From Loxodes magnus (lineage: Eukaryota > Ciliophora > Karyorelictea > Loxodida > Loxodidae): 64,000 nucleotides of DNA. Below are positions 3,200-53,097 of the stretch, one piece after another. The notes beneath the pieces were generated by a model that was not told the origin of the DNA, did no database searches, and saw only the letters and a program-made list of their open reading frames with translations. Location: contig CAMPDV010000266.1 of assembly GCA_946699065.1 (NCBI GenBank), forward strand, positions 310,001-374,000. Direction: 5' to 3'. A program made the translations under genes and the position numbers. Positions within the stretch are counted from its first letter, which is position 1. Each line of letters starts with the position of its first letter.

Positions 3200-5329
3200 A
3201 TGGCTGAAAATACTAGAACTTCAAGTATTTAGCTCAGTGAATTTATACTCTTAAAGAAATAAAAACAGAAAGAGTAATATGAATAAGATATTTCAAGTCA
3301 GTAAGGCTAAACTGTTAAAAACGAAGTCTTGCAAGAGGAACAACTAGGGATGAAAAATAATAAGGAAGAATAAAAATAAAATATAGAGAAGTATGAGAGG
3401 AAATTTTAGTAAAAATAGTCTATGCTTTGGAATAGCAAATATATCTTGGATTTGCTTACATAATTTCTAAATCTAAATGATATAACTTAGTTATAGTAAG
3501 TAAATAGATATTTCTATAATTTTAGTTATCTATTTAAGGAATTGGACACTTAAATAATATAAAATGATATTTAAATTACAAAGAATAAGATAGAATGAAT
3601 TTTGAGATAGATAAGTAAATCTGATGTAGAAACAATAGATCTAGATGGAAACCTTTTGTCTTCAAATGTGTGCCTATAAATTATGAATAATTTAGTGAAA
3701 TCTATAAATCTCAGAATTTAAAAACTGAAAAATTCCTCTCTAATGAAACTAAAGGAAATTGTAATAAAAAACTGATCCAATAATAATTTTGATTCTTTAC
3801 CTAATCTATAAAATATAAAAAGTTTAACCAGCTTAAAAATTGAAGATACTATAATTAGAGATTAAAATTTATACTTTATGCAAGAGCTAACAAATTTAAA
3901 ATCAGTATATCTGAAACAAGTCGAATAGATATCAGGTTAGTTTTTGGTTGATTACTGTTAAAGTCTAAAAATAGAAAATCTAGAAATATATACTAAAATG
4001 ATAAATTACCAAAAGATAAAAGATTATTTAAAAATAAAGGGATAATACATTCATAACATTAATATAAACTCTAATACTAAATTAGACGAACTTATTGATT
4101 TTTCCCCTAACTTAAAAGAAATTTAAATAATAGAAACATATAAAGAACCTGATTAGTTTTTAGATAAAGTTAAAAGGTTAAACCTTTAATGCTTAAGCAT
4201 TCGAATTTCTGATTTCTCAGATTAGACTTTAAGAAATTTCTTTGGTTGTCAGAATTAAAATCTTGAAACTATTAAAATTTTAAATAATAATCCATTTTAA
4301 AATAATTTTTTCTAACTAATTCTCTAAAACACTCCTAATATAAAAAGTCTAAGTTGAACTTAATATGATTTTATAAATTATGTTTATAACTAGTAATAGA
4401 ATGAAGATTAATAAGATATTAACTTTGCTTAGTAAAAGTTACTTTCTAGACTCGAAAATATCGACATTAGTAATTTTCGCTTATAAAGTGATTAAATTCT
4501 AAGATTTCTGCTTTAAATATCTCCTAATATTAGAACTTTACATTTTGAAAATTTAATAAGTAGTCGTTAATAAGTAAATATGCCTCTGAAAGAAAATATT
4601 TAAGCTCAGATATCACACTAATATTTATATTTACAAGATATCAAATTTTGGAAATGCAATTTTATTAGAGATGAAACTATCTTATTCATAATTTAAAATG
4701 CTCCTAATCTTAAAAAATTAGATGTTAATAAAATGAATCAAATAAAAAATGAAACGATTCATTAGCTTGGCATTTATTCATCTAAACTAGAGTATATTTA
4801 ATTATGAGAAATGAATCATTTAACAGATGAAGCTCTTAGCTTTATCTTTTAAAACTGCACTAAATTATAATATATCTCTTTAAAACATAGTAAATAAGGA
4901 AGTCAAATAAAATAAAATCTATAATCCTAAGGGATAACTAATATTTCTCTTGGAGAGAACATTTCCACGTGTAAAATGTGAATAAAATAAATGGTTTAAA
5001 TTTAAAAACTAGAATTATTATTACTAGAGGGACTAAGTTTAGTAAATGAAGATGTAGTTTAAATAATTAAAAATTGTTCTAATTTAAAATATTTAAATCT
5101 TGAAAGTAATGAAGAAATAACGGAAAGAGGATTTATAATTAGAGATGAGACTGGGTCTTAATATCCAATTTGGAGCAGCTTGAGAAAATTAAACTTATCA
5201 TAATGTTCTAAAGTAAATGTTTAATGAATCAATTTAATGGTTCTACAGTTCACGAAAATAGAAATATAGTGTGAAAGATTGACAAGCTTTAAAGATCAAG
5301 AAATGGATTTTGAATTGAGAAGTATTTGA
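3200..5329 (+). CDS. F-box/LRR protein, FBXL family copy A
   Basis: Predicted substrate receptor of an SCF ubiquitin ligase, acting in cytosol or nucleus. The frame holds from ATG 3200 (context TTATAAAATGGC, as in actin) to TGA 5327-5329, 710 codons with TAR=Gln. The N-terminus is Q/K-rich. An F-box-like segment at about residues 77-115 reads LWNSKYILDLL...FLNLNDITQLQQVNRYF. Leucine-rich repeats with NCSNLKYLNL and ITDEAL-type motifs fill residues ~130-700. In-frame TGAs occur at 3596, 3773, 4979 and 5225, among others. At 3773 and 5225 copy D has TGG, so these are best read as Trp. Copies A, B, C and G all have exactly 710 codons. The true stop may be the next TGA, two codons on. Copy A is nearly identical to copy C. 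If UGA is always stop, the gene would be a pseudogene, but frame conservation argues against this. Confidence 0.75.
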
Positions 5330-5659
5330 CTTTGAACTAGAAATAAATTAAACTATTATTTAAAATTATTAAATCTCTTTGTATTTATATAAATTTATTT
5401 TATTGTTAAGTTAGTTAAAGTAATCTTTAAATAAAGTTTATTAAGAAATTGATAAAACAAGTTGTAGTCTTATAATCTAAGTTAAAAGACTTAAAAGCTT
5501 AAAAATTACATAAAATGCTAAAAAGTATCTATCCAATAAATATAAATGGTTTATTTTAAGAAGGTAATATTATAAAAAATAATTAAGCTAATTTTAAATG
5601 AATCCTTAAAAGATGCCAGGTTTTAATTTGCTAAGTATAAAGATATTTAAATAATTTAT

Positions 5660-8060
5660 TTTTAATAGGAATCTCCAACTGATATTTACTAAAACTCTGG
5701 TACCAGGAAATACCCATAGTGAAGAATCGAACAAGAATTATAGCAGTAGTCAATAGGGATAAGAATGGAGAGATATCAACTAGCTTTAATGTTAATTGAT
5801 ACCATATACTAAGGTTTCTTAGGTTAGCATTCCGATCACTGCCCTACAAAAGAAAAGATTCACAAGAGAATGCTAGCACTGAGGAAGATTTCAGTAAAGA
5901 ATTTTTTAATAAATAAATTTAAACTAAAAGAGTTTTTTGAGGTGTTTTAATTGCAAGAATTGCTTCTTTCAATTATAGATGTTAGTAAATGTTTTTAAAT
6001 TGTTTTTTAATCTTGTTTACATCTCATCATTTTTCTTTAATTAGTTCTTCTTTCTATTCTTCCTTTTTTGCTTTCTCCATTTCTAGAATCTCAAGTCTCC
6101 TTGTCATTAGCTTCTTATGAAATATTTTGATCTATAAGTCTAAATACTCCAATTTAGACCTTGAAAATGAGTTTAGATATTCTTGATCGTATAGTATAAG
6201 GCGTCTTAAGTCATAATTTCCGATCTTTTCCGATAATCAATTCATTACATTAGAATAGTACACACATTTAAAAATATGCTCGAAAGTTTCATAATCTCCA
6301 CACATACAATAGGGATTATCAATGGGGTAATGACGATCTTAAAGATCCTTACAGAAATTATAAGTTTAGGTTCTAAGTTTATATATACTGATAATTTCTC
6401 GTCTATACTATTTGTTTAATTTCGTATAAGTAATTTGTGGAAATTGTTAAAGATTACCAAATTATTCAGTATATACTTTAGCTGTTTTCATTCTCATAAA
6501 TTTTTTAGTAGCTACTTTGTGGAAATATTGTTGTATTTTTTCTCTTATATGATTAGTAAAAGTTTTAAGATTGGTATTATTCTATTAATTCTGCAGATCG
6601 ATATTATAAAGGTCTGATAATTGTTACACTTAATCGTAGTATTGAAATCCTTTTTTCCATATATTAATGAAAAGAGAGCCTATTGTTGATCTTGGAAAAT
6701 CAATATTCTCTTATTTAATTTTATGGTAGAATCTGAAGAATTTTATAGCTATAATGTGCTTAAAGGGTAATCAATTCAGGTCTATATAACATGATTCATT
6801 AGATGTTGAAGTTGCTACTTAAAAAGCTTTTCTTTAAATTAATCTCATGCTTGATTCTATTCTGTTCAGAACTCCAGTTACTCCGTTTTGAGTACTTCAT
6901 GGTACTAAGTCTCCTCCATATTCTGCTTTAGGTAATGTAAAAAGTCTACATAAAGTTTTAAAATGTCAAGGAGTTACATTCTTATATCTCATCAGTTAAA
7001 AAACAACTTTTTTCATTGCAGCTATATATTTGAATGCAACTTCTTTGCAACTGGGATTCAAGTTCTTCTTCTGATGTAGAATAACTCCTAAATATGTTAC
7101 TTGTTCTTTTTAATTGGTTAATTTCCTAATTATAAATTTAAAATTTATTATTTCTGATTCTTCTTTAGAAATTAGATGCATTCAGATTTGGTAACATTGA
7201 TCTTTAAATATGTTCATGCAAAAACTTTATTTGCTTCATTTATTAAATTCTACATCTACTTTGCAGATTTGGAAAGAAGAATAAGATCATCTGCCCATCC
7301 TCTACAAGCGAAGTTAATACTTGAATCCTGCATTTAAATCCCAATTAGTTACTTTTACTTTCCAGATATCTAATTACTATGTCATAATACAATAATGCTA
7401 AAAATGGTCCATGAGAACTTCCTTACATAACTCCATTGTTGAATTATAAAGTTCTGGTGCTCTTACCATCTATGATAAATGAAGAATTTAGGTTTTTATA
7501 AAACGATTCTAATCTATTATTATTCCAAGTGGTAGTTTAACTCTCTTAAGTTAATCAAACGAGAGTCTTCTTTCTATTGAGTCAAACATTTTTTCAATGT
7601 CTATCAGTGTTGCTATCAATTTAGTCTTACCTTTAGCACATTTCCGATAGTTATCAATTATTTGTTATATTATTCAAATTTATTAAGTTGTTTATCTGTT
7701 TTTCATAAATCCCATTTATGAAGGGTGAATCAAATTTCTCTAATAAATAAGATTGTATAGTCTTTTTGTTAAAGCTTTATCATATAGTTTTAGAATAGTA
7801 TTAATAAGAGAAATAGGTAGTCAGCTTAGTTATATCTAAATAATTTAAGCTTATGAGATTTAGGGATTTGGCAGGTTAAATTTAATTTTCCTTGGATATA
7901 AATAAATTTTAAATATTTCAAGTATCATTTATAAGGAAGTAGTTTAATAATCTATTTTAAAGAAAAAAAAATTATATTAATATTTGGATTCCATTTAAGA
8001 TGATTAGAGGTCTAAATATTACTTTCTAAAGGAACAGAAGGAAAAAAAATCCAAATAAGA
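5660..8060 (-). mobile_element. LINE (non-LTR retrotransposon), 5'-truncated and decayed
   Basis: The minus strand encodes the reverse-transcriptase core and C-terminus of a LINE polyprotein. Visible motifs in order are LPYKWYLKY...IPKSHK, PISLINTILKLYDKAL with RL, TLIDIEKMFDSI, GVMQGSSHGPFLALLYYD, and the catalytic WADDLILL (about 7284-7305). A C-terminal zinc-knuckle-like CMCGDYETFEHIFKC follows, then a charged tail ending at TGA 6027-6029. The Trp in LPYKW is a TGA at 7925-7927, at a position where LINE polymerases usually have Trp. Reading frame changes at least three times across the polymerase, so this copy is dead. A 3' region of about 370 bases (5660-6026) is more GC-rich and recurs inverted at 41395-41640. 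No endonuclease domain is recognisable, so the 5' end is probably missing. Confidence 0.75.
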
Positions 8061-8230
8061 ATCTAGACATAGCAATATTATAGCAATAGATTAATTTTAT
8101 AAGTGATGCATACTTTTTTTAATATACTCTTAAGCAATAGAAGGCATTCCTTAGAAAAGTTAAATATTAAGACTATATAAAACTTAAGAATATCTAAAAC
8201 ATTTTCGTTAGATTAAAGTAAACTAAAACA

Positions 8231-9967
8231 TCACTATTTATTTCTTTTAGCTATATATTCCTTTAAAAAAGATAAATAAATCTAAATTTCCAATATTTTT
8301 AGGCTTAGCTAGACTCTCAATAAATAAGTTAGTTTAATTTATTCTCTGATATTAAATAAATAATTGAATGCATAATCAATAGGTGTTCTACTATCAAATT
8401 ATGGAATTGGCTACTTTAGTCTTTATTTGATTTATACTATATCTCTCAACTAAGATTCCTTATTAAAGTTAAGAAAATAATAAGGAATAAAGAAATAAAA
8501 GATAAATATTTCCTTTTTAAACAATCCTAAAAGATAAGATTCTGACTCTAAATACAAAGTTATTTAAATTCCTTAAAGCTTAAAAAAGAGAAAATAAGAT
8601 TTTCTATAAATTAAGTCCTTGAATATTATTCATAATATCTAAGATGAAAGATGGAAGATTAGATAGGATAAATATAAGAATTATACTAAGACTCTTTAAT
8701 TCCTTCAATGAATAAATGAGGAATGTTTAACTAAAGATATAAGATCAGGATTATAATACCAATATATAATAAAATCAAGTTTTATAATATTTATACTTTT
8801 AGTGAGAAAGTATTAAAGAATAATAAAAACGGTGATTATATATTTTCTACTTATTTAGACTAAAAAATAAAGCATAATAAAGATTTAGGATTTTGTCTAT
8901 TAATTTAAACAAATGAAGATTTTAGTTATTATATTAGAATTTAATAAATCCAAATTTAGCAGGACAGTAAATATCTTTCCATTCCAACCAAATATTCAAT
9001 TCTGCATACAAAGGTTAATTTTTTTAAAGCTTATCTACCTCTTCTAATCTAAAAATAGCTTTATCAAATCTTAAAATAAATTTGGTTTATTAATTATGAA
9101 TTTTCTTCCTCTAATTAAATCCTATAGAATATGAAATTAAATGATGGATAAACTAAGCTACTAAATAGAATGTGATCATCAAATAGCTTAACTTAAAAAC
9201 ATCCAAATTATAAATTTCCTTAATAATATCTTACTCTTATCAATTCTGTTTAATGTTTCTATAATAACTTTTAGTTTATCCTTTTATTCATATACCTCTT
9301 TACTTAGTAACTTGATTCTATCTTTTTAATACTATAAGGATATAATATTAAACAGTCAACTATCACTATAAATTAAAAGTTTTTCGTATTTAGTAATAAG
9401 TTTTTTAAAATTTAAGGAATTTCTATTTTCTCTAAGTTATAATATTGTTTCATATTAAGCAATAATTAAAACTATCTGATACATAATAGTTAGCCTTCTA
9501 TGATTTAAATGTATACAAGCTTTAGCAAATAAATAGGCTACCTTTATTACTATAGTAAGAAAATATAGGAAAACAACTTTATTTAATAAAAGAACTACAT
9601 CTTTGAAAGAATATCCTAATTCTATATTAAAGTAAAGTCTATTTAGACGCTCAATATAAAATTTTATTTTGATATGATTCGTTAATTCAAGCATCTTATT
9701 CTTATTCCACATTGAAGATAAAAGAATATTTAGTGTAAATTTATAGAAAACTAAAGGAAAATTATAATTAGCTTCATATGCTTATAAAACTAAGCATGCA
9801 AACAGTTAAAATAGAAAATACCAATACTCTTTATGTTACTTTCATAGTTACTTCAAACTCTATTTATTCACTTTAGAGAATAGAATCTAATTCCTCTTAT
9901 TCAATAATAGTAAGAAAAAATTTGGCTCTTTTAATCTTTACGAACGTATTTTTCTAGATGGTAGCAT
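8231..9967 (-). CDS. Membrane-protein-like coding region, family not recognised
   Basis: With TAR=Gln and UGA=Trp, a frame of 578 codons runs from ATG 9967 (MLPSRKIRSQRLKEPNF) to TGA 8231-8233. It has hydrophobic segments such as VVFLYFLTIVIKVAYLF, and charged helical stretches such as KDRIKLLSKEVYEQKDKLKV. About seven in-frame TGAs fall in Trp-like contexts (KQLWKQ, SDSWLF, MQNWIFGW). It lies upstream of the LINE on the same strand but shows no endonuclease motifs, so I treat it as separate. It may be the 3' part of one gene with the PAS-like region at 10560-11142. The function is unknown, and openness of the frame is not evidence on its own here. Confidence 0.4.
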
Positions 9968-10559
9968 GGGAATATTTATTTTTAGTGAAAATAAGTATAG
10001 TAAGTTAAGCTAGTTATTGCTTAAAATTAACATTAATTAGATTTCAAGTTTAATGATACTTTCCTTAGAGTATTATATCTGTTTAAAGCTGATAAAAAAG
10101 CCCTTTAGAAGAAGGTTTATATATCTAAAGCTTATTTGGATATTCTAAAAAAAAAATTAATTCTTTTGGAAATAATCTTCTATCTTTTATATAGAATAAG
10201 ACTATTTTGTGAAACTTAATGTATATGAAATAAATTTTAAATAAAGAAGGAATATATTAAATACTTTAAACTAGAAATTTAAAAACTTAAATCTATTTCA
10301 TACCAATAAAACTTAAAATTCATTATTTTATTTTTTTTATTTTATTTACATATATTAAATATTTTTATGGTTAAAGCAAAACTTAAAAAAGTGTATAAGT
10401 ATTAGAGATATTTTTCATTGACTGATTTAGTGATAATAGGGTTATTAAGGATAATTTTTTAAAGATAAGTCTAAAAAATGTACTAATAAAATAAAATTAG
10501 ATTATTTAATTTTTTCTACTTATAACAAAGAAAAAATCTAGAGAACTGAAAAAATTTTT

Positions 10560-13402: not shown

Positions 13403-13475
13403 TGTCGGTGCAGAGACTTGAACTCCGGTTTCGACGGCCACAACGTGGTGCCCTAAGCAGCTAGACTACAGCGAC
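13403..13475 (-). tRNA. tRNA-His (anticodon GTG), with two stem mismatches
   Basis: The minus strand folds as a 73-nt tRNA. The anticodon loop TTGTGGC gives GTG. The T arm is CGGAG-TTCAAGT-CTCTG, the discriminator is A, and a run of six T follows at once as a Pol III terminator. Two C-C mismatches are seen: one in the acceptor stem (positions 5-68) and one in the anticodon stem (28-42). No encoded G-1 and no CCA are present. It is either a working but odd gene or a young pseudogene. Confidence 0.8.
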
Positions 13476-14557: not shown

Positions 14558-15691
<1,134 letters not shown>

Positions 15692-20157: not shown

Positions 20158-22287
20158 ATGGCTGAAAATACTAGATCGTAAAGTATTTAGCCCAGCGAAC
20201 CTATACTCTTTTAGAAATAAAAGCAGGAAGAGTAATCTAAATAAGATATTTCAAGTCAGTAAGGCTAAACTGTTAAAAGCGAAGTCTTGCAAGAGGAACA
20301 ACTAGGGATGAAAAATAATAAGGAAGAATAAAAATAAAATATAGAGAAGCATGAGAGAAAATAATAGCTAAAATAGTCTATGCTTTGGAATAGCAAATAT
20401 ATCTTGGATTTGCTTACATAATTTCTAAATCTAAATGATATAACTTAGTTATAGTAAGTAAATAGATATTTCTATAATTTTAGATATCTATTTAAGGAAC
20501 TAGATACTTAAATAATATATAATGATGATTAAATTACAAAGAATAAGATAGAATGAATTTTGAGATAGATAAGTAAATCTGATGTAGAAACAATACTTCT
20601 AGATGGAAACTTTTTGTCTTAAAATGTGTGCCTATAAATTAGGAATAATTTGGAGAAATCTATAAACCTCAGAATTTAAAAACTGAAAAATTCCTCTCTA
20701 ATGAAACTAAAGGAAGTTGTAATACAAAACTGATTCAATAATAATTTTGATTCCTTACCTGATCTATAAAATTTAAAAAGTTTAACCAACTTAAAAATTG
20801 AAGATACTATAATTATAGATTAAAATTTATACTTTATGCAAGAGCTAACAAATTTAAAATCAGTATATCTCAACAAAGTTGAATAAATATCAGGTTAGTT
20901 TTTGGTTGACTACTGTCTAAATTTAAATATAAAAGAGTTAGATATAGAGAGTGAAGTAATAGATTACCAAAAGATAATTGATTATTTAAAAATAAAGGGA
21001 TAATACATTCATAACATTAATATAAACTCTAATACTAACTTAGACGAATTTATTGACTTTTGCCCTAACTTAAAAGAAATTTAAATAAGTTCAACATATA
21101 AAGAACCTGATTAGTTTTTAGATAAAGTTAAAAGGTTAAACCTTTAAAGTTTTATCCTTAGAAATACTTAATTCTCAGATTAGACTTTAAGAAATTTATT
21201 TAGTTATCAGAATTAAAATCTTGAAGCAATTGAAATGTTACATAAGAATCCTTTTAATTACGAATTTTTCTAATTTATTCTCTAAAGCTCTCCTAATATA
21301 AAGAATCTATGATGAACTTAAGATAATTTTATAAATTAGGTTTATAACTAGTAATAGAATGAAGATTGATAAGATATTAACTTTGCTTAGTAAAAGTTAC
21401 TTTCTAGACTCGAAAATATTAATTTTAGAAATTTTCGCATATAAAGTGATTAAATTCTAAGATTTCTTCTTTAAATATCTCCTAATATTAGAACTATAAA
21501 TTTTTAAAATTTAATAAGTAGTAGTTAATAAGTAAATATGCCTCTGAAAGAAAATATTTAAGCTCAGATATCACACTAATATTTATATTTACAAAATATC
21601 AAATTTTGGAATTGTAAATATATTAGAGATGAAACTATCAAATTTATAATTTAAAATTCACCTAATTTAACTAGTTTAACGCTTGTTGGTATGACTCAAA
21701 TCAGAAACGAAACATTTCATTATATAGGTATCTACACACCTAAATTAGAGATGATTTTTATATGAGATTTATATCAGATAACAGATGAAACTCTTAGCTT
21801 CATATTTTAAAATTGCACTAAATTAAAATAAATATATATCTCACATAATAAATAAGGAAGTTAAATAAAATAAAATCTATAATCCTAAGGGATAACTAAT
21901 ATTTCTCTTGGAGAGAACATTTCCGCATGTAAAATGTGAATAAAATAAATGGTTTAAATATAAAAGCTAGAATTATTATGACTATAGGGACTAAGTTTAA
22001 TAAATGAAGATGTAGTTTAAATAATAAAAAATTGTTCTAAGTTAAAAGATTTAAATCTTGAAAGTAATGAAGAAATAATGGAAGCAGCATTCCCTATAAG
22101 AGATGAATTTGGGTCTTAATATCCAATTTGGAGCAGCTTGAGAAAATTAAACTTAAAAAAATGTTCTAAAGTAAATGTTTAATGAATCAATTTAATGGTT
22201 CTACAGTTCAAGAAAATAAAAATATAATGTGAAAGATTGACAAGCTTTAAAGAACAAGAAATGGATTTTGGATTGAGAAGTATTTGA
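20158..22287 (+). CDS. F-box/LRR protein, FBXL family copy B
   Basis: The same 710-codon architecture as copy A: Q/K-rich start MAENTRS, F-box-like segment near residues 77-115, then leucine-rich repeats to the TGA at 22285-22287. There is no net length difference from A despite many substitutions, which suggests past selection on the frame. It carries the TGAs shared by the family. It also has extra TGAs at positions that are Ser, Gln or Leu in A (for example LLLL in A, LL-TGA-L here). Those are not Trp sites, so this copy may be starting to decay or may tolerate the substitutions. The upstream palindromes are conserved, and downstream homology to A ends at about 22493. Confidence 0.65.
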
Positions 22288-25203: not shown

Positions 25204-27348
25204 TCAAAATTCAATATTTCTCAAATCAAAATCCATTTCTATATTTTCTTGTGCTTTTTTCACGACTTCAGGTAATATTTTAATTTTTGTGAATTACTAT
25301 CTCATTTAAATGATTCATTACATATTTACTTTTGAACATTTCTTTAAGCTTAACTCTCTCAAGTTTATCCAAAATTAATATTAAGACCTATATTCATCTC
25401 AAATAGGAAAAGCTTCTTCCGTTACTTCGTCATTGCTTTCAAGATTTAAAGTTCGTAACTTAGAACAATTTTTTATTATTTAAGCTACATCTTCGTTTAC
25501 TAACTATAGGTCTATTAGTTATAATGTTTCTAAATTTTATATTTAGACCATTTATTTAATAAAATTATTACATTCAAGATTGTATACTCCTTTAGTTATT
25601 TCTTAGGATTATAAATTTAACGTTATTTAGCTTTTCTTTAAACCTTATTTTCTTTGTTTGATGGAGATTTTTTTTTAATTTATACAGTTTTTGAAGAAGA
25701 AACTGAGAGTTTCATTTGTTATATGATTCATTTCTCCCAAATCAAATCTCTCTAATTTTGTTAGGTAAGTACCTATCTAGTAAAATGTTTAGTTTGTAAT
25801 TTGATTCATTTTCTCAATTCCTAAGCTTCTTAGATTAGGTGAGTTTTAGATTATGTATAAAATAGTTTTATCTCTAACAAATTCGCATTATCAAAAGTAA
25901 ATAATCTCTAACTTATAAAATTAGTGCTATATCTAAGCTAAGATGTATTCTTTCAGTTGCATATTTGCTTATTAGAAACTAACTTAATTTTAAACATTTT
26001 TGAACATTAATGATCTAATATTTGGAGCCTTTTAGAGTAGAAGTCTTAGAATTAGATCACTTTATTAATAAACATTTTTGAGAGAAACTTCTTACAGATT
26101 AGCAAGTAATTTCTAATTTATGAAGTTAATACCTTAATAATGTTCACTCTATTGCTAGTTATTAACCTAATTATTTTAATTATCTTCAATTAATATTAGA
26201 TTCTTTATATTAGGAGAGCTTTAATGAATTAGTTGAAAAAGCTCTTATTTAAAAGGATTTTTATGTAGCATTTCGATAGTTTCAAGATTTTAATGCTGAA
26301 TAGCAAATAGATTTCTTAAAGCTTAGTCTGAAAATTCACAATTTCAAATGGATAAAATTTTAAAATCTAAATTTTTAATTTTTTCTAAAAGTTAATCAGA
26401 TTCTTTATAAACTGATCTTATATCAATTTTCATTAAGTTAGGACAAAAATAAATAAATTATGTTATTTTTTTATTAAAGTTTATATTAATGTTATGAATA
26501 TATTATCCCTTTATTTTTAAATAATTTTTCATCTTTTAAAAATCTATCATTTCACTCCTTATAATTAACTCTTATATATAGAGATTTAGACAATACTCAA
26601 ACAAAAACTAACCTATTATCTCATTAGCTTAAGAAAGCTATACTGATTTTAAATTTACTAACTCTTACATAAAGTATAAATTATAGTCTCTAATTGTGAT
26701 ATTTTAAATTTTTAAACTGGTTAAACTTTTTAAATTATATAGATTAGGTAAAGAATCAAAATTATTATTGAATCAGTTTTTTATTATAACTTCCCTTAGT
26801 TTTATTAGAGAGGAATTTTTCATTTTTTAAATTTTATGATTTATAGATTTCTCTAAATTTTTCACTATTTATAGGCACGCATTTTAAGACAAAAAATTTC
26901 CATCTAGAATTATTTTTTCTACATAAGATTTAATTATCTATCTCAAAATTCATTCTATCTTATTCTTCGTTTATAATGTTTCGTTATTTACTCTATAATT
27001 ATCTAGTTCCTTAAATAGATAACTAAAATTATAGAAATATCTATTTACTTACTGTAACTAAGCTATATCACTAACATTTAGAAATTGCTTAATTTAATAA
27101 AGTATATATTTATTATTCCAAAATATCTACTAATTTTACTAATATTTTCTCTCATACTTCTCTATATTTTATTTTTATTCTTCCTTATTATTTTTCATCC
27201 CTAGTTGTTCCTCTTGCAAAACTTCGCTTTTAACAGTTTAGCCTTACTGACTTGAAATATCTTATTCAGAATAATCTTCCTGTTTTTATTTCTTTAAGAG
27301 TATAGATTCACTGGAATAAATATTTGAACTTCAAGTATTTTCTGCCAT
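25204..27348 (-). CDS. F-box/LRR protein, FBXL family copy E
   Basis: Minus-strand family member, ATG at 27348 (MAENT), TGA at 25204-25206, 715 codons. It diverges more from A than B or C does. In the C-terminal repeats a Phe codon (TTT) replaces the TGA that most copies have in the CKM-x-IKQM motif, whereas the TGA in NMQ-x-IIQM is kept. It ends NIEF-TGA, which suggests that the second of the two TGAs in the other copies is the real stop. Its upstream palindrome is degraded. Predicted SCF substrate receptor as for the other copies. Confidence 0.65.
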
Positions 27349-30482: not shown

Positions 30483-32630
30483 ATGGCTGAAAATACTAGA
30501 ACTTCAAGTATTAAGCCTAGCGAACCTATACTCTTATAGAAATAAAAACAGGAAGAGTAATCTAAATAAGATATTTCACTTCAGTAAGGCTAAACTGTTA
30601 AAAATAAAATCTTATAAGAGGAACAACTAGGGATTAAAAATAATAAGGAAGAATAAAAATAAAATATAGAGAAGCATGAGAGAAAATAATAGCTAAAATA
30701 GTCTATGTTTTGGAATAGCAAATATATCTTGGATTTGCTTACTAAATTTCTAAATCTAAATGATATAGCTTAGTTATAGTAAGTAAATAGATATTTCTAT
30801 AATTTTAGTTATCTATTTAAGGAATTGGACACTTATATAATATAAAATGATGCTTTAATCACAAAGAATAAGATAGAATGAATTTTAAAATAAATAAGCT
30901 ATTCTGATGTAGAAAAAATAGTTATAGAAGGAGATTTTTTATCTTAAAATGTGTGTGTATAAATTAGGAATAATTTAGAAAATTCCATTAATCATAGAAT
31001 TTCAAAACTGAAAAATTCCTCTCTAATGAAGTTAAAAGAAGCTGTAATACAAAGCTGGCCTAATGATAACTTTGAATCTCTGCCTAACCTTTCAAATTTT
31101 AAAAGCTTAACCATTTTATAAATTTATGATACTACAGTTAGAGATTAACATTTATATTTCATTGAATGCTTAGAAAATTTAAAATAAATATGCCTCTCAT
31201 AAGTTAATGAGATAACAGGTTAGTTTTTGGTAGACTACTGTCTAAATTTAAATATAAAAGAGTTAGATATAGAGAGTGAAGCAATAAATTACTAAACAGT
31301 GAAAGATTATCTAAAAATAAAGGGATAATACATTCATAGCATTAATATAAACTCTAATGAAAAAGTAGATAAACTTATTGATTTTTGCCCTAACTTAAGG
31401 ATAGTTGAATTAGAATCATCTTATAAATAACCTGATAAACTTTTAGAGAAAATTAGAAAATTAGACCTTCAAAGCATAAGCATTTGCACATAATTTTCAG
31501 ATAAGACTCTATTAAAATTATTTGATCGTAAGTATGAAAATCTTGAAAGTATTTAAATGTTTTATGAAAATCCATTTAAATACAAACTATTCTGACTAAT
31601 TCTCTAAAGCTCTCCTAATATTAAGAATCTAAGATGAATTTAAGGTAATTACCATATCTAAGTTGATAACTAGTAATAGAGTGAAGACTAATCAGATATT
31701 AACTTTGCACAGTTTAAATTATTTTCTAGTCTTGAGAAGCTTTTTGTTAATAATGTTTGATAATAAAGTGATTGAATTTTAAGGTTTCTACTTTAAAAAA
31801 GTCCTAATATTAGATAAATATAGTTTAACAATATGTACAGCTAAGCAAGTAACATATAATAAGTAAATATGCAATAGAAAGAAATTATCTTAGCTTAGAT
31901 TCCTCACTAATTTTGCTAGTTAGAGCATATTTGCTTTTGATAATGTGACTCAATTAAAGATGAAACTTTCTTATTCATTATTTAAAATTCACCTAATCTA
32001 AGAAGTTTAGGCTTGGATAAAATGAATCAAATTAGAGATGAAACATTTCAATAGCTAGGTATTTATTCCTCTAAATTAGAGAGTATTAATTTAAGAGAAA
32101 TTAATCATATAACAGATTAAACTCTAAGCTTTATCTTTAAAAACTGCACTAATTTCTAGAAAATTTTCATAAGCCAAAGTTAATAAATTTAAAAATAAAA
32201 TACATCAACATAAAAACTATAGCTATAGGAGTTAACTAATACTTCTTATGGAAAGAGCAGGTTTACATGTAAAACGTGAATAAAATAAATGAATCAATTA
32301 CAAAATTTAAAATAATTAGAACTAGAGGGGCTATGTTTAGTAAATGAAGATGTAGTTTACATAATAAAAAATTGTTATAAGTTAAAAATTTTAAATTTGC
32401 AAAATAATAAAGAAATAACGGAAGAAGCATTTTCTATTAGAGATGAATCTGGATCTTACTATCCAATTTGGAAAAACTTGAGAACATTAAACTTAAGATA
32501 GTGTTCTAAAGTAAATATTTAATGGATAAATTTAATGACTCAACAGTTTACGAAAATAGAATTCGTATGTGACAGAATGAAAGTATCACACGAAGATAAA
32601 ATAATGGATTTTGATTTGAGAAGTATTTGA
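30483..32630 (+). CDS. F-box/LRR protein, FBXL family copy D
   Basis: 716 codons in one frame, with F-box-like segment and leucine-rich repeats as in copy A. This copy is the key to the code: at codon 192 (31056-31058) it has TGG (QSWPND) where A has TGA, and at 32523-32525 it has TGG (IQWINLM) where A, B, C, E, F and G have TGA. Other shared TGAs (for example after KIE near residue 133) remain TGA here too. The final TGA at 32628-32630 follows LRSI, as in most copies. It is separated from its neighbours by GC-rich islands and ORF1-like fragments. Confidence 0.75.
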
Positions 32631-36052: not shown

Positions 36053-38200
36053 TCAAATACTTCTCACATCAAAATCCATTTCTTGCTCTTTCAGTCTTGT
36101 CAGTCTTTCACAAAATATTTCTATTTTTGTGAACTGTAGAGTCATTAAATTGATTCATTAAACATTTACTTTAGTACATTATATTAAATTTAATTTTCTC
36201 AAGTTACTCCAAATTGCATATTAAGTTCCTGATTCGTCTCTTATAGGGAATGCTGTTTCCGTTATTTCTTTATTATCTTATAAACTTAAATTTTGTAACT
36301 TAGAACAGTTTTTTATTATTAAAATAATGTCTTCATTTACTAAACTTAGCCCTTTTAATTATAATTATTTTAAATTTTTAATTAATATAATTTATTTAAT
36401 TCAAATTTTACATTTGATATTGCTCTCTCCAAGAGAATTATAAACTATCTCTTAGGATTATAATTTTTAAGTTACTAAACTTCCTTTCAAAGTTTGTTAA
36501 CTTTTTTGAATGGAAATATCATTTAAACTCGTGCAGTTTTAAAAAATGAAGTAGAGAGTTTCATCTGTTATATGATTCATTTCTCTTAAATTAATACTTT
36601 CTAGTTTAGATGAATAAATACCAAGCTATTGAATCGTTTCATTTCTAACTTGATTCATTTCATAAATACTTAAAACTTTTAGATTAGGCGCATTTTATAT
36701 TATAAGCAAGATAGTTTAATCTCTAATAAAATCGCATTATCAAAATAAAATAAACTCTAACTTTCTAAATTAGTGTGATATCTAAACTAAGATATTTTCT
36801 TCCAATTGCATATTTACTTATTATATATTACTAACTTAAGTAAATAAATTATCAAAAATTAATTATTTAATATTAGGAGCTTTATATAGCAGAACTCTTA
36901 AAATCCAATCACTTTATTGTTAAACATTTCTAATAAAAGCTTTCTCTATATTATAAAGAAATTTCTAATTTCCAAAGTTAATATCTTATTTATCTTTTCT
37001 CTAATGTTAGTTATTAACTTATTTATTACTATTTTCTTAAATTCATTATAGATTTTTTATATTAGGAGAGCTTTACAGAATAAATTAGAAAAATTCGTAA
37101 TTAAAAGGATTCTTATGTAACATTTCAATTGCTTCAAGATTTTAATTCTGATAACCAAAGAAATTTCTTAAAGCCTAATCTGAGAATTAAGTATTTCTAA
37201 GGCTAAACCTTTAAAGTTTCAACCTTTTAACTTTATCTAAAAATTAATCAGGTTCTTTATATGTTGATCTTATTTATATTTCCTTTAAGTTAGGGCAAAA
37301 ATCAATAAGTTCGTCTAATTTAGTATTAGAGTTTATATTAATGTTATGAATATATTATCCCTTTATTTTTAAATAATCTTTTATCTTTTGGTAATTTATC
37401 ATTTCACAATCTATTTCTAGATTTTCTATTTTTAAACTTTAACAGTAATCAACCAAAAACTAACCTGATATCAATTCAACTTTGTTGAGATATACTGATT
37501 TTAAATTTGTTAGCTCTTGCATAAAGTATAAATTTTAATCTCTAATTATAGTATCTTCAATTTTTAAGTTGGTTAAACTTTTTATATTTTATAGATTTGG
37601 TAAGGAATCAAAATTATTATTGAATCAGTTTTTTATTACAACTTCCTTTAGTTTCATTAGAGAGGAATTTTTCAGTTTTTAAATTCTGAGATTTATAGAT
37701 TTCTCTAAATTATTCCTAATTTATAGGCACACATTTTAAGACAATAATTTTCCTTATAGATGAACAGCTTCAACATCAGATTAACTTATCTATCTCAAAA
37801 TTCATTCTATCTTATTCTTCGTTTATAATGCTTCGTTTTTTACTCTTTAAGTATCTAGTTCCTTAAATAGATAACTAAAATAATAGAATTATCTATTTAC
37901 TTACTATAACTAAGCTATATCATTTATATTTAGAAATTTAGTAAGCAAATCCAAGATATATTTTCTATTCCAAAACATAGACTATTTTAGCTAATATTTT
38001 CTCTCATACTTCTCTATATTTTATTTTTATTCTTCCTTATTATTTTTCATCCCTAGTTGTTCCTCTTGCAAGACTTCGCTTTTAACAGTTTAGCCTTACT
38101 GACTTGAAATATCTTATTTAGATTACTCTTCCTGTTTTTATTTCTTTAAGAGTATAGGTTCGCTGGGCTTAATACTTGAAGTTCTAGTATTTTCAGCCAT
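36053..38200 (-). CDS. F-box/LRR protein, FBXL family copy F
   Basis: ATG 38200 (MAENTRTSS), TGA at 36053-36055, 716 codons, no net frame change. It has AGA (Arg) in the LESINLRE motif where A has TGA, and TGA at the NVQ-x-INLM site where D has TGG. A second TGA lies two codons further on (36047-36049). The upstream palindrome (38296-38310) is intact. Same predicted role as the other copies. Confidence 0.7.
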
Positions 38201-41965: not shown

Positions 41966-44095
41966 TCAAATACTTCTCAATCCAAAATCCATTTTTCGCT
42001 TTTTAAATCTTGTCAATCTTTCACACTATATTTCTATTTTCGTGAACTGTAGAACCATTAAGCTGATTCATTAAATATTTACTTTAGGACATTATTTTAA
42101 GTTTAATGCTCTCAAGTTGCTCCAAATTGGATATTAAGACCCAGTCTCATCTCTAATTGGAAATCCTCTTTCCGTTATTTCTTCGTTGCTTTCAAGATTT
42201 AAATCTTTTAAATTAGAACAATTTTTTATTATTTAAACTACATCTCCATTTACTAAACTTAGTCCCTATAGTAATAATACTTCTAGTTTTTATATTTAAA
42301 CCATTTATTTTATTCACATTTTACACGTGGAAATGTTCTCTCCAAGAGAAATATTAGTTATCTCTAAGGATTATAGATTTTATTTTATTTAGCTTCCTTA
42401 TTTACTATGTTTTAAAGAGATTTATTTTAATTTAGTGCAGTTTTAAAAGATAAAGCTAAGAGTTTCATCTGTTATATGATCTAATTCTCATATAAGAATC
42501 ATCTCTAATTTAGGTGTGTAGATACCTATATAATTAAATGTTTCGTTTCTGATTTGAGTCATCCCAGCAATCATTAAACTAGTTAAATTAGGTGAATTTT
42601 AAATTATAAATTTGATAGTTTCATCTCTAATATATTTACAATTCAAAAATATTATATTTTGTAAATATAAATATTAGTGTGATATCTGAGCTTAAATATT
42701 TTCTTTCAGAGGCATATTTACTTATTAACTACTACTTATTAAATTTTAAAAATGTAAAGTTCTAATATTAGGAGATATTTAAAGCAGAAATCTTAGAATT
42801 TAATCACTTTATAAGCGAAAATTTATAATACTAATATTTTAGAGTCTAGAAAGTAACTTTTACTAATCAAAGTTAATATCTTATTAATCTTCATTCTATT
42901 ACTAGTTATCAACCTAATTCATAAAAGTATCTTAAGCTCAACTTAGACATTTTATATTAGGAGTGCTTTAGAGAATTAGTTAGAAAAAATTATTTTAAAA
43001 TGGATTATTATTTAAAATTTTAATAGTTTCAAGATTTTAATTCTGACAATTAAATAAATTTCTTAAAGCCTAATCTGAGAATTAAGTATTTCTAAGGATA
43101 AAACTTTAAAGGTTTAACCTTTTAACTTTATCTAAAAACTAATCAGGTTCTTTATATGTTTCTATTATTTAAATTTCTTTTAAGTTAGGGCAAAAGTCAA
43201 TAAGTTCGTCTAATTTAGTATTAGAGTTTATATTAATGTTATGAATGTATTATCCCTTTATTTTTAAATAATCTTTTATCTTTTGGTAATTTATCATTTT
43301 AGTATATATTTCTAGATTTTCTATTTTTAGACTTTAACAGTAATCAACCAAAAACTAACCTGATATCTATTTGACTTTGTTGAGATATATTGATTTTAAA
43401 TTTGTTAACTCTTGCATAAAGTATAAATTTTAATCTCTAATTATAGTATCTTCAATTTTTAAGTTGGTTAAACTTTTTATATTTTATAGATTAGGCAAGG
43501 AATCAAAATTATTATTGGATCAGTTTTTTATTACAACTTCTTTTAGTTTCATTAGAGAGGAATTTTTCAGTTTTTAAATTCTGAGATTTATAGATTATTC
43601 TAAATTATTCCTAATTTATAGGCACACATTTTAAGACAATAATTTTCCATCTAGAAGTATTGTTTCTACATCAGATTTACTTATCTATCTCAAAATTCAT
43701 TCTATCTTATTCTTTGTAATTTAAATATCATTTTATATTATTTAAGTTACCAGTTCCTTAAATAGATATCTAAAATTATAGAAGTGTCTATTTACTTACT
43801 ATAACTAAGTTATATCACTTAGATTTAGAAATTATGTAAACAAATCCAAGATATATTTGCTCTTCCAGAACATAGACTATTTTAGCTATTATTTCCTCTC
43901 ATACTTCTCTATATTTTATTTTTATTCTTCCTTATTATTTTCCATCCCTAGTTGTTCCTCTTGCAAGACTTCGTTTTTAACAGCTTAGCCTTACTGACTT
44001 GAAATATCTTATTTAGATTACTCTTCCTGTTTTTATTTCTATAAGAGTATAGGTTCGCTGGGCTAAATACTTGACGTTCTAGTATTTTCAGCCAT
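41966..44095 (-). CDS. F-box/LRR protein, FBXL family copy G
   Basis: ATG 44095, TGA 41966-41968, exactly 710 codons as in A, B and C. F-box-like segment and leucine-rich repeats are conserved, and the family TGAs are kept, including those at the LEMIL(I)-x-EL and CKM-x-IKQM sites. The upstream palindrome is at 44198-44212. It is part of an inverted duplicate of module A, but its upstream block X is interrupted by a GC-rich insertion. Confidence 0.7.
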
Positions 44096-46195: not shown

Positions 46196-46329
46196 TTAAT
46201 TATTTTTTAAGCATTTAAAATATAAATCATTCTTTCTTCTTTCATTTTTAATTATAAATTTATTTATTTTATTTCATAAATGAATTAATTTATTTACATG
46301 ATTTTCAATTTATTTGGTTAGTCACAAAT

Positions 46330-47375
46330 CAAAAGTTAAATGTTAAATAAAAGAGACTTCATATTTGCTTGGATCTTGTTTATCATACGTTCTAAGGATT
46401 TTTAATCTATTTTTTCTGAGAGTTTCTGATAGATCGATTCCCATTCATTTCTTATTAAATTCGTTAATTGAATGCTATATGTTTGGAGCTTCTTTGTTTA
46501 TCTGGAGTATTTTTTCCTTCACTTGCTTTAGTTAACATTTTTCCAGATATTCATTCTTATTTTTTTCTATTTAGGATATTTCCACCATAAATGTAAAGTG
46601 CTTTTGCAAATGTAACATCTTTTTATTGCTCAAGGAAATGTTTTTTCTTGTTTCTCTATTTCCATTGGAGTTCCTTAAGAAGGCTTCTATAGGTTTTCTT
46701 CTATTAATTGGAGTCTCGAATCTAATTTTACTCAGTTTTTCTCGTCTCGCTCTTCCATTACTCAAATGTCATTCTCTAAACTTGTAATTTGCTCATAAAT
46801 TCCGACTTTAGCTTTTCGGTCTACTATATAGGCTTCATCATCATCTTCATTATTTATCAAACCCTGACTTAATACAATTATTTCTTCCTTCTGGGAGTTT
46901 AATTCCTCTTCGAGTTTTTTATGTTTCTAATAATTTGATGAATCAGCTGTTTCATCTACTAAGAGTCAATTTATTCTATTTCAGTATTGTCTAAATCAAA
47001 GGTAATTGAATCTATATAGAATTATCGTACTTTACCTTCTGCGTTTATTTTTTATTTTTTCGTTATTATTTTTATTGATTGAGTTGATGGATCTTTTTTT
47101 CAGTTTTCAATTGAGGTGTTGAGAACTGTATTAACTTTTCTGTTCTGAATTTTTATATCAGTTCTTACTTGTCCTTTGATGGAAGAGATCTGCTTTATTT
47201 TAATTTGTAGGAGTTAGTATTTTTTATAAGTTCTTCTAATCTATTAGTTAGTTCTGGTTATTTTTATTAAGAAGAGCGTTAATTTGAAGAAGACATGATG
47301 AGAATATGTGCTTCTGGTTTTCTCTCCTATTCTGAGAAGGTAGTAAAAAAGCCCTTCTTGGAGCCAGCCGTTTAA
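46330..47375 (-). mobile_element. ORF1-like element, decayed copy in reverse
   Basis: The start of the conserved N-terminus (AGSKKGFFTTFSE) is recognisable next to 47375, followed by a Ser/Gln-rich part (MSSSNQRSSQQKQ) like that of the intact copy, then coiled-coil sequence with IEQIDSQQMKQL. Higher GC at the 5' end. A few breaks. Confidence 0.55.
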
Positions 47376-47399
47376 TATTATATCGAGATAAGTAGGTAA

Positions 47400-49940
47400 T
47401 ATCGAATTTGTATGAATCTTTAATCTAAAATACGAGAAAAGCTATACAATAAATTTCCTTAATTTCTTAATTTTAATATTTAGAAGCATCTTATATCTTA
47501 GTTTTTAGTAAAGCATCATAATTTATAGTGTTTAATGATAATAAGCAAGCATCTATCTTTATAATCTTATTATTTTCAATTTAATATTCATATATAAATT
47601 AAAACTTTAATCATTAGATAATACGCTAATAAGTTGTATATTTCTTAGAAAATGGAAAATTGTAAGTTCCGAAAATACAAATAAATCATTCAAGTTTATA
47701 AAGAAAAAATAAATATAAGAAATATAAACTAAAGCACTATATAAAATAGAATTGTAAGCATATTCTAACTATGTAGATATTAATAATAGATCTTAAATTT
47801 ATGTAAGAATCTCATTAAATGTTCATTTTACTCTTTCTTAGTTCAGTTCTAAATGTTGAGTTGCTTATAAAAGTTTGAATATAATGCACTTTAAATTAAT
47901 AAGATAAGGACAAATAAAATAAAAGGAAATCATCAATAATACTTTAAAATGATATATAAGTTCTAAATTTGAAATGCTTATTATTGCAATTAATTGTTTA
48001 AGTTATAATCATAGATATAACTCTAGGAATCTTCAAACAAATTTTTATATTTTATATACCATAAGATAAAAATCGTAAATGTATTTATGATTATCTTAGA
48101 TTTTATGCTAGATATGATAATTTTAAATAACTAAAAGTATGATATAATCAAATAAGAAAAACTCTATTTTATGAACTTTATTTTAATATCTCCTATAAAC
48201 TGCTTATTTTATTCTAATTTTAGTTAAAAGTAACATCATTTTTTTAATAGTTTCTATAAGGCTATTTTAGTAATAAACAAACTAAACAATTCATCCAAAA
48301 AATTAAAGCAAACGTAATCTAAAAGTTAGAACAAATTAAGTTTGGTATTATGCAAACTAAATAACAGAAACTTTTCAAAGTAAGAAAGGATTACTATATA
48401 TATAGTTGTATACTCTTTAACCTTATTTTAATTGATAAATTTAAACATAATTTATATAATCTTTCAACAAATAAATCTATTATATAATTATAAGTAAATA
48501 AGGCTATCTATCTTTGTAAAAGATCACAATAAATAATCTTAATCAAGTTAAAAGAAAGAGTAGGTTATTTTAAAATATTGTATTAAAGGAAAAAGCAAAT
48601 ATTAAGTTTATCAATCCTAATGTAAAAGCTTAATTATAATTTTAGAAAAATAATTAAATTATCTTAAAACTTAACTAAAAGCTTTAACTTTATAAATATT
48701 TTCTATCTTATTAAAGATTTTCAATTTATCAGGAAGCTATAATTGAAATAATTAACACTTTATAAGAACTTTTGTCATAAATATTATTAAATTTCCTTAT
48801 CAATAAAAAGTTGAGAGTTTACACATTAAAGTAAGATCATAAAAGAAAGAATAATTTAATATTTTAATAACAAGTATTTTCATAAGGGTTTGAGATATTA
48901 AATATAAAATTCCTTGTGCATAAAATAATAAAAATTATCTCTTTTAAGAATTATTTTTGCATAAGTGCTAAAATTATAAAAATGCTTTTTATTTAGAACA
49001 TTTATATATACAAGTTCTTATGAAAACAACTAAATTTTAAATTTAAGTTTTTCGCTTAAAGACTTGGTAAATATTTTTTATTAATTAGATTTAAGTATAA
49101 ATGGTAATTATTTTTATTATTACTTTTTCTATTTTGTGGTTATTCATTATTAGCTTATATTCATAATATCCTTTTTTCGAATTTATTTAATTTTTTTAAT
49201 TTTCTTTATCCAATAGAGGCATTTTAGGTTAATAATTTACTTTCATCTTAAATTAATACTAATTAGCTTCATAGATATTTTATTAATATCTTTGATGAAT
49301 TGTTCATATTTTATTTTTAAATTTAGAATTTTTTAATCTTCGTTTATCTTTCATTTTTAAGAAAATTAACAAAGAGGTTTATCAATAATTTATTAGATTT
49401 ATTCACATGAACTTAAATTTTAGATTTAACTTATTTAACTTTAAAAATCCTTTCATCTTCATGCCTTTTTAATTCAGTTAAGATAATAAATAAATTTTAG
49501 ATTTTATATATGTGATTTCTGATTTAATCCTACTTATCATAAACATCTTTTTCTATTTATTTAATTTAGTAGATATAATTACTTCTTTCTTTTGCTTAAT
49601 ATTTTTTATTTATTTAATATCTTAAAATTTAGTTCTTAAGCAGTCTTTCACCTATATTTTTTTATAAGTTATTAAATAAGAAAATAAATTATTATATTTC
49701 CTCTAATATCCTTTTAGCATATTAATTTTTGCATTCACATATTTAACTATCCAAGTATGCTAAATTTCTTTTTTACTATTTAACTTATTAAATATTAATT
49801 AAGAAATAAAGATTTATTTACTCTCTAGGATTTAATTATTTTATAGCTTTAAAAATAATATCTGCAAGATTCTTATTTTGATGTCTTTTCTAAATTATTA
49901 AATCAATTATTTAACTATAAAATTTTCTTAGAAAAAATAA
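47400..49940. other. AT-rich stretch with weak coding signals
   Basis: No gene could be fixed. Plus-strand segments near 48060-48200 (CIYDYLRFYARYDNFKQLK) and 48480-48760 (KGKSKYQVYQSQCKSLIIIL) look weakly protein-like, but no domain, start or stop is clear. Confidence 0.3.
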
Positions 49941-49942
49941 AA

Positions 49943-50812
49943 ATGGTAGAAGGGTTCAAGAAAGGCTTTTATACCACCTCCTAAAAAGGGGAGAAAAAGT
50001 AAGAACCCTCATCTTTAACTCACACATCTTCTTCCTAGAAATAATCTTCTTCTCAAAACCTTCAAGAATAATAGACTCAACTAGGAACTTCCAGACCAAC
50101 CTAAAAGATGGGACAAAAGCGCCAAAAGGCTACCCCGATGACACCAACTGAAGAGGAAGGACCTAGAAAGGTGCTGGAGACGCAAGAAACAGCAGCCGTG
50201 CGAGAGTTTGCGATGCCATAGTTACAGGAAGAACAGGCATAAATTTTAGTCGCATTCGCTGACCTGAAGGAGGAAGTAAAGAAGGAACGATTAGAGAATA
50301 GAGCTCTAAAAAATCAAGTTATTGAGCTCAAGGAATGGAAAGAAAACTTCTGGGAAGTCTACGATCGAGAGCAAAACACTTTCTTCAGGGAAATGGGATT
50401 GCTGCAGCAGAGAACAACTGTGCTTGAAGAGAACAGCAAGTAGCAACAGTAGTAGGAATTCAAAGTTAGGACAATTCAAGATCCAATGGACATAGAAGGA
50501 GCTACTACGTTACCGAGGAGTCCAGGCAAGAAAGAATTAGGAATAAACTAAGATTCTTTTTATGCAAATAAACTGGGCATAAATATAGACAATGTTAGAA
50601 ATTAAAATTAATTAAATAATAGTACTGGAATGGAAAATAATAAGAAAAATAATAGTACTAATATTAGGATAAGATTAGACGAGAATTCTGTAACTAATTT
50701 TATCTGTCAGGAGGTCAAATCTACAAACCGAAGTGGTACACAATCCAAGGCGCCTGAAGAAAGAGTTCTGAAGGGAGCTGGTTCCAGCCAGGTTATCAAA
50801 CTGGTCCTGTGA
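49943..50812 (+). CDS. Intact ORF1-like coiled-coil protein, 289 aa
   Basis: One uninterrupted frame from ATG 49943 to TGA 50810-50812 with TAR=Gln. It opens MVEGFKKGFYTTSQKGEK, then a Ser/Gln-rich segment (residues ~20-60), then a charged coiled coil at about residues 75-160 (DLKEEVKKERLENRALKN, VIELKEWKENFWEVYD), and an Asn/Lys-rich tail ending SSQVIKLVL. GC is well above the flanks and Trp is TGG. It is related to decayed copies at 22497, 33369, 34640, 46330 and 57320, which marks it as the ORF of a repeated, probably retroposed element. No polymerase follows it, so it may be non-autonomous or a former LINE ORF1. It could act as an RNA-binding particle protein by analogy; that is inference. 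Confidence 0.6.
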
Positions 50813-51433
50813 ACACGAGGTTGAAAGTCCTCCAAGTTCACTAAACTCCAATTTAAACTTTTTAATTTAATTTAGTAAATGCTATAAAATTTTCTTACGA
50901 ATCTAGACAATTTATTTTTTACAAACTGAAGAAGAAAATATTTGGTGAAAGCTTATAAAAATGATTAATATTTTATGACCTGTTCAATATAATTATCAGA
51001 TATCTAGTAACCAAATTCTTAATTTAATCTAATCTTTTTATGGTATACTTAAATAAATTAATTTTAATTAATTATTTTAAATTAATTAATGTATGTTTCT
51101 TAAGAAATTCTTTTATGAACAAAAATTTTAGAAAAAATGAAAATAAAAGTTATGCAATTGAAGTTTTCATAATACTTATGAAAAAAAGATATTAGCAATG
51201 GAAACAATTTATAAAATTTATAAAGCACATCCTCTGCTTAGAATTATACTTTCCATTATCTTTCTTTGCAAACTAGCTTATTTATTTAAACATAATCAAA
51301 ACATATTCTCCCTTAAACAAAGAATATATTGCTTTATATAAATTTGATATGATTTTCTTCATTTAAGAATTTAATTATTAATTATAATTTATCAATTTAT
51401 TTTTAGTTAAAATAAAGGATCTTAATGGGATTT

Positions 51434-53097
51434 TCATCTTAGTTGAATTTCATTCAGCTAGCAATTAAATAAGTTTTTTTCTACTTCTTCTAAGTTATCT
51501 ACTATCTATATCTTTTTAAATTTATTCTTTAATTCTTTAATTCACTATTAGCTAATTTATGAGCACATATATAAATCTAAAGACTTTAAGCTATTGTAAA
51601 TTGGATAAATTAGTCCTTATTCATCTTTTAAAGGAAAGCCATTTTCAGTAATATCTTTATTTTGACTTAAATCTAACTTACTAAGAAATTTGCAGTTTTA
51701 TATTAGTTGAGCTACTTATTAATCCTTAAGCGAGCATCGATTTAAGCTTAATAATTTAAGTCTTTACATTCTTATTATATCTTAGATTCAGTTTTCTCCA
51801 AATACTTTGCAATTTTCAAGTTTTAATATTTCTAACTATTGACAGTTCTAGTTTAGGATTTCTAAAGTATCTTTCTTAATTTCCTTAATAGCTTTTAACT
51901 CAATATGCTTAAGTTATTTGCAATTTTAAAAAATTAATCTAAGTGTCTCATCTTTTATCTATTTAATGCTTTAGATTGTTATTTACTCATACTTAACTCC
52001 ATAAATTCCTATCTTTTAAAGAGCTTCATTTGTAATTAACTTCAGCTCTGATAGTCATAACTTTTATAACCCAGGCGTATTTTAAAGCAAGAGGATCAAG
52101 TTATTATCATTAAAGAATGGACAGTTCTTAATCCTCACAAAAGTAAGTTTAGTCCACTATTTTGAGAAGAAATGAGCAAAGGAGTTATTACTGAAATTAG
52201 CTACTCAAATAGAAAGGTATTCTAAATTTATATTTCTAAATGCTTATAAAATAGTATCTGAAGAGCTCTAAACTCTAAATAAGTCAACTATTTTTAAGTT
52301 AGGGCATAAATCTATAAATTAATCAATTTCTTGGTTTCAGTTTATTTCGATGTTTTCTATTAAGCTTCCTTTTACTTCTAAAAATTATCTTATATACTTA
52401 TAGTCTATTTCTTCGCTTTTAATTATTAGAGTCTTCAAATTTAAACTCTAGCAATAGTCTACCAGAAACTTGCCAGTGACTTGTTAGATTTTATACAACT
52501 GAAGGAATTCAAGCTTTGGTAACTTTTCTATGAACTGTAATTATTAGTCTTGCAAAATTAATTCTGAAAGTGTTAATTTCTATAAGTTCTAGCAAAGTGA
52601 AATATCAGGCAAAGGAACATTAGGAGGTCAATCATAAATGTAAATTTCTTATATTTTAACTGGCTTGTTTTGGTTTTAATTTCTCTGATTGAATAAAATA
52701 CACTTATTAAGCATTAGCTGGATTTATATGCACAAATCTTCTTTTAACTATCCAGCATATATTAATATTTTGGTTACATTTGAAAGAGCTATTTACTTGA
52801 AAATTCATTCGAATTCATTTTAAGTATTCTAAGAATCAAAATGTTCCCTTTTATAAATCTTAAGTCTTTTAAATTGTAGCAAAATTGATTAAAATACTTG
52901 TTCTAGCATTGGAGACTGCAAATATCCTTTTTCTTTAAGAACTAGAATATTTGATTAAGAATGTTTTTATTCTTTCAAAAGCTTGCTTACTGAGCTTCAT
53001 GTTTACTTTATTCCTACACTTATATAATTTCTTAACTAGTTTTAATTTAGTTTATATCAGTTAATTTCATATTTTAATTCTTTCTGGAAATTCCCAT
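51434..53097 (-). CDS. Diverged F-box/LRR paralogue
   Basis: Shares the whole layout of the FBXL family at low identity: F-box-like FWKNKNILNQIFQFL then KKKDICSLQCQNKYF, then repeats including VTGKFLVDYC (family: ISGQFLVDYC) and a C-terminal KDEQGLIYPIYNSLKSL (family: RDETGSQYPIWSSLRKL). In-frame TGAs at 52975, 52805, 52628, 51788 and 51542 align with the family's Trp/TGA sites. The one at 52975 faces a TGG in all the others. One net frame change lies near 52850, between F-box and first repeat (small intron, error or damage). Start at 53097 or 53070. Stop at 51434-51436 after NEIQLR. Confidence 0.65.

Follow-up and report, generated by a model that had tools for sequence, protein, structure and literature searches.

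Loxodes magnus almost certainly uses genetic code 27, in which UAA and UAG encode glutamine, and UGA encodes tryptophan inside genes and terminates translation at gene ends; this dual reading would depend on tRNA-Trp, on the release factor eRF1 and on the closeness of the mRNA end. The evidence comes from a 64,000-nucleotide stretch of the genome (hereafter the window; contig C266, bases 310001-374000), analyzed together with the searched assembly (705,730,643 bases in 7,843 contigs, to which the C-numbers below refer). Here TGA stands at conserved tryptophan positions in unrelated protein families, and TGA also ends the same kinds of genes. In the excerpts of the literature on which this report draws, Loxodes is assigned NCBI table 27, with UGA as tryptophan or as the only stop (PMC11441545), and because both the dual UGA code and its likely tRNA basis in Loxodes are already in print, the window represents an independent confirmation and not a discovery. 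A codon that can mean two things calls into question the notion that the genetic code is fixed, and in this case the dual UGA was found from paralogue columns of raw sequence alone; what the window adds is a set of cautions on which sites are good evidence. The karyorelict-type code proposed in a preliminary description of the window was reproduced in kinases and actins outside the sites used there, and it agrees with the code published for Loxodes (PMC11441545).

Within the window, the dual reading can be followed in an array of seven FBXL genes, all of which are open over 709-715 codons from a MAENT start to a common end. Copies A (3200..5329), B (20158..22287), D (30483..32630) and G (61606..63735) lie on the plus strand, and copies C (25204..27348), E (36053..38200) and F (41966..44095) on the minus strand; A, B and F have 709 codons, D and E have 715, and C has 712 to the shared end. 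Each copy carries six to nine in-frame TGA and two to four TGG codons (six and three in A and E, nine and three in B, and six and two in F). Copy G is a near-identical duplicate of A, with one nonsynonymous difference, and because of this duplication it is not independent of A and was excluded from the column statistics, which use the six non-duplicate copies. The duplication itself is near-perfect and joins window positions 1-5900 with 58407-64000, about 58.4 kb apart.

At column 192, TGA is present in copy A (3773-3775, plus strand) and in the other copies, and TGG is present in copy D (31056); the same exchange is seen at column 682 (5225-5227 in A, 34 codons before the stop; 32523 in D). 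All coordinates of these two pairs, on which the preliminary description had built, are correct, and two further exchange columns, 432 and 487, were absent from it. The resulting overlap of four between 16 TGA columns and six TGG columns, out of 716 in total, has a hypergeometric P of 2.4e-6 when columns are taken as exchangeable. TGA also terminates all seven genes: A stops at 5327-5329, with a further TGA at 5333-5335, and in C, where GAA replaces the first terminal TGA, the gene stops at a TGA two codons further along (25204-25206). The final sense TGA stands 34-117 codons upstream of the stop in the seven copies, a sample of few genes, and this spacing is in line with the published depletion of sense UGA over about 20 codons before the stop (PMC11441545). 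On the profile evidence, the predicted FBXL label of the array family is correct: a profile of six FBXL copies and the leucine-rich repeat (LRR) part of a diverged paralogue, H, matches FBXL2 (E 4e-29) and FBXL17 (E 1e-24) over the LRR part. An LRR model was found in six of the seven profile members, none being found in copy A, and the F-box was recognized weakly and in H alone (E 0.007, below the cut-off).

Two further families served as tests at genome loci that were chosen without the sites of the preliminary description, with TGA masked as X. In the best 30 of 136 kinase domains listed, 21 in-frame TGAs occur in 7,631 codons, whereas the shifted frames contain 106 and 369 in 7,601 codons, and 13 of the 21 fall at three TGG-majority columns (Fisher P 8e-23, with paralogues counted as independent). 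Seven of them stand at the DxW column, where 22 domains have TGG and one has tyrosine, and five and one stand at two other tryptophan-majority columns; eight are elsewhere. When TAA, TAG and TGA were all masked in these 30 kinases, the top-enriched residue opposite TGA was tryptophan (72-fold), and opposite 185 masked TAA or TAG cells it was glutamine (6.7-fold), with 21 of the 185 in glutamine-majority columns. In one kinase (L054), whose query was translated with TGA as tryptophan, the TGA stands opposite a tryptophan of Akt2 kinase.

The second family is actin, for which nine of the 53 matches outside the actin array were fetched. These contain nine TGAs, distributed over five of the nine genes, and six of the nine TGAs occupy positions 76, 83 and 337, at all of which the array actin carries TGG. 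In eight of the nine, the match end is followed by an in-frame TGA at a distance of three codons or fewer, and a single gene, L082, shows both meanings of UGA, with TGA at position 76 and again directly after the last codon. The eight array actins fetched all end in KCF-TGA, as does the actin of the window (14558..15691, plus strand), which has four TGG codons, seven TAG and three TAA codons in frame and no internal TGA; its stop at 15689-15691 confirms the earlier observation that actin ends with TGA. In-frame TAA and TAG are abundant in actin, kinases and FBXL alike.

Other sites in the window proved to be less secure. Paralogue H, on the minus strand, consists of an F-box part (52855..53070), in which the TGA at 52975-52977 stands opposite TGG in all seven copies, and an LRR part in another frame (51434..52858), which contains seven in-frame TGAs, four of them on family tryptophan/TGA columns, and ends with TGA at 51434-51436. 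With both parts included in the column comparison, five of the eight in-frame TGAs of H fall on such columns (P about 9e-9, columns taken as exchangeable). The five sites given in the preliminary description (52975, 52805, 52628, 51788 and 51542) are indeed TGA on the minus strand, and it had left three of the eight TGAs uncounted; its claim that frameshifts are absent holds for the seven FBXL copies and fails for H. The frame of H changes near 52856, between the F-box part (53070-52855) and the LRR part (52858-51437). The single upstream GT within 50 bases of the change, at 52897, is inside family-aligned codons and implies an intron of at least 32 bases, whereas 93% of published introns do not exceed 25 bp (PMC11441545). 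Because such an intron would be longer than this majority and would remove family-aligned codons, a frameshift or a sequencing error appears likelier. The TGAs of H would thus reflect shared ancestry of sites rather than present translation.

A similar caution applies to the long interspersed nuclear element (LINE)-like copy, whose TGA at 7925-7927 on the minus strand lies in the context IIKLLPYK-TGA-YLKYLKFIY. The codon is as described earlier, and the identity of the surrounding segment as a LINE polymerase stands as a resemblance judged by eye, since the reverse-transcriptase-like copy changes frame and is split over frames, and no reverse-transcriptase Pfam model matched in the three frames scanned. 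Downstream of this TGA, in another frame, a segment resembles by eye what we take to be the usual RPISL motif. Since both copies change frame, the arguments from the paralogue and from the LINE are weaker than was first stated, and both copies speak for homology and not for translation. In a retrotransposon ORF1-like frame (57320..57961, plus strand), which had been reported to run on through a TGA, the frame holds five TGAs up to 57961, and one of these (57857-57859) occupies position 2 of a CX2CX4HX4C pattern, presumably a zinc knuckle.

Codon constraint was measured with omega between FBXL copies past the first shared TGA, H being represented by its LRR part alone. The median was 0.55 (range 0.45-0.74), and the same DNA gave medians of 0.78 (0.58-0.87) and 1.13 (0.85-1.64) in two shifted frames, which served as a control because base-composition bias is not taken into account by simple counting. 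The FBXL codons that follow the first shared TGA look constrained, which argues against decay.

Several observations weigh against tryptophan as the meaning of in-frame TGA and TGA as the stop. In nine of the 16 FBXL TGA columns the TGA is private to one copy, mostly opposite arginine or glutamine codons, so that not every FBXL TGA is an ancient tryptophan. The eight kinase TGAs (of 21) found elsewhere are off tryptophan-majority columns, four of them in columns with TGG elsewhere; three of the nine actin TGAs lie away from tryptophan columns; three of the eight TGAs of H are off the family tryptophan/TGA columns; and the in-frame and out-of-frame omega ranges partly overlap. In addition, the L086 actin (C193:129400-130700) has TAA two codons past its end and no in-frame TGA within 16 codons. 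Some of these points could be accommodated by decay, in which mutation of TGG or CGA would have produced genuine stops in degenerating duplicates, as could the frame changes in H and the LINE-like copy. We nevertheless consider decay extremely unlikely, given that the 709-715-codon frames are intact in seven FBXL copies, that their codons past the first shared TGA look constrained, and that conserved kinases and actins have TGA at tryptophan columns.

The L086 actin, which is possibly a case of a UAA stop or a decayed copy, is also the observation that most directly invites a code like that of Condylostoma, with free termination at UAA and UAG as well as at UGA; a depletion of UAA before stops in published L. 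magnus transcripts points in the same direction (PMC11441545). However, in each of the eight remaining non-array actins that were fetched, a TGA lies no more than three codons from the end of the match, TGA ends the eight array actins, the two eRF1 genes described below and the seven FBXL genes, and in-frame TAA and TAG are abundant, which makes free termination at these two codons very unlikely.

Code 27, with UGA as tryptophan inside genes, raises the matter of the tRNA that reads this codon. tRNA-Trp(CCA) genes form tandem arrays at C67 482300-491200 and, in the part listed, C148 155400-169400, with spacings of about 187 bp and 241 bp, and the top pair of their anticodon stem, 27-43, is broken: it is A27.C43 in the listed C67 copies and U27.C43 in the listed C148 copies. 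This reading covers 26 of 35 positions. Genome-wide, the tRNA-Trp motif with the 27-43 mismatch was counted in 124 copies, 100 of which were listed and gave the base identities at 27-43, and the paired G27-C43 form in none; ARAGORN did not recognize as tRNAs the two tRNA-Trp-like pattern matches in which position 43 is a different base. In other organisms a tRNA-Trp(CCA) with a 4-bp anticodon stem reads UGA, and Loxodes is named as having one in excerpts of two publications (PMC13092985, PMC12005148). As controls, tRNA-Phe (L045) and the tRNA-Glu of the window were inspected by eye, and in both the anticodon stem has 5 bp. The latter, tRNA-Glu(CTC) at 55827-55898 on the plus strand, is ordinary, and the tRNA-His of the window (13403-13475, minus strand) has by eye an anticodon-stem mismatch at 28-42, so that tRNA-Trp is not alone in having a broken pair in this stem. 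Although tRNA-Trp sits in tandem arrays, the idea that it is specially amplified was rejected, since the tRNA-Phe motif has 280 copies.

A search of the genome with a UCA-anticodon pattern returned ten matches, none of which ARAGORN accepted as tRNA-Trp(UCA), the strict pattern being one that could miss a divergent or mitochondrial gene. Because a reversed control pattern gave eight matches, the ten are near chance. Three of them (L009, L074 and L079) had no Rfam match, and seven UCA-like matches (on C444, C558, C561, C594, C921 twice and C1144) resemble truncated Leu-type tRNA pieces and are not tRNA genes by ARAGORN. These pieces carry a TTCAGA loop and, by eye, may represent the head of a short interspersed nuclear element. 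The suggestion that the genome be checked for a tRNA-Trp able to read UGA led to tRNA-Trp(CCA) with a broken 27-43 pair, and tRNA-Trp(UCA) was not found by the strict pattern. A pattern with UUA or CUA anticodons gave nine matches against two for its control; five were fetched and none was a tRNA by ARAGORN or Rfam, and tRNAs reading UAA and UAG were therefore not found by the pattern search of the genome.

These results also bear on whether UGA might stand for selenocysteine, another residue or occasional read-through instead of standard tryptophan. Selenoproteins likewise give one codon two meanings by place, as is generally known, and yet the masked TGAs align with tryptophan columns in two unrelated families, TGA and TGG alternate in FBXL, and none of the ten UCA-anticodon matches is a tRNA by ARAGORN; we find this alternative scarcely conceivable.

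For termination, two eRF1 genes were found on C196 (L040 and L041), whose motifs for stop-codon reading are altered: both have RAQNIKS, FLCENTF and alanine where human eRF1 has Ser70, which is the combination entered for Loxodes striatus eRF1 in a published table (PMC4695839). L041 matched Pfam eRF1 domains 1-3 and a solved eRF1 (E about 1e-158), and both genes lack internal TGA and end in TGA. We propose that the tRNA-Trp(CCA) with a 4-bp stem would read UGA as a near-cognate codon, that eRF1 with Ala70 would be outcompeted at UGA inside coding sequence, and that closeness to the mRNA 3' end would let eRF1 win at the true stop. In the published context model, termination prevails near the mRNA end (PMC4967479), and we infer that UGA may be read in such a context-dependent manner at the window sites.

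Comparison with known systems places this code with the karyorelict code, table 27, of Parduczia and Loxodes, which gives UAA and UAG the same sense, uses UGA for tryptophan within genes and stops at UGA; no difference was found in the excerpts compared (PMC11441545, PMC4967479). The UGA stop was seen in 8/8 fetched array actins, 8/9 fetched actins outside the array, 2/2 eRF1 genes and 7/7 FBXL genes. Condylostoma magnum, as far as the excerpted account goes, shares the dual-meaning UGA, the 4-bp-stem tRNA-Trp(CCA) and the lack of a detected nuclear tRNA-Trp(UCA), but all three codons can terminate there (PMC4967479), whereas the Loxodes gene ends examined are all TGA but one. Blastocrithidia, in the portion of its description used here, resembles Loxodes in its 4-bp-stem tRNA-Trp(CCA) and in the change of eRF1 Ser70; in contrast, it reads UAA and UAG as glutamate, uses UAA as stop and has glycine at residue 70, whereas Loxodes has glutamine as the top residue opposite UAA and UAG, a UGA stop and Ala70.

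Finally, the use of sense UGA in Loxodes may follow expression level, although we think this rather unlikely: UGA for tryptophan could be a slow codon that heavily translated genes avoid, whereas fast-evolving genes could tolerate it or even employ it as a brake. The TGA share of tryptophan codons is 21/82 in the kinases and 41/58 (about 70%) in FBXL copies A-F, and neither the 43 top-scoring actins nor the 21 tubulin matches on C64, which were counted for TGA, contain the codon in frame. Against this idea, other tubulin arrays of many copies, among them those on C441, C629 and C1348, have one TGA per copy, and some partial actin matches on array contigs contain TGA.

The 43 top-scoring actin matches, which are nearly equal and lack internal TGA, occur on many different contigs, and in the window one stands among the FBXL copies.

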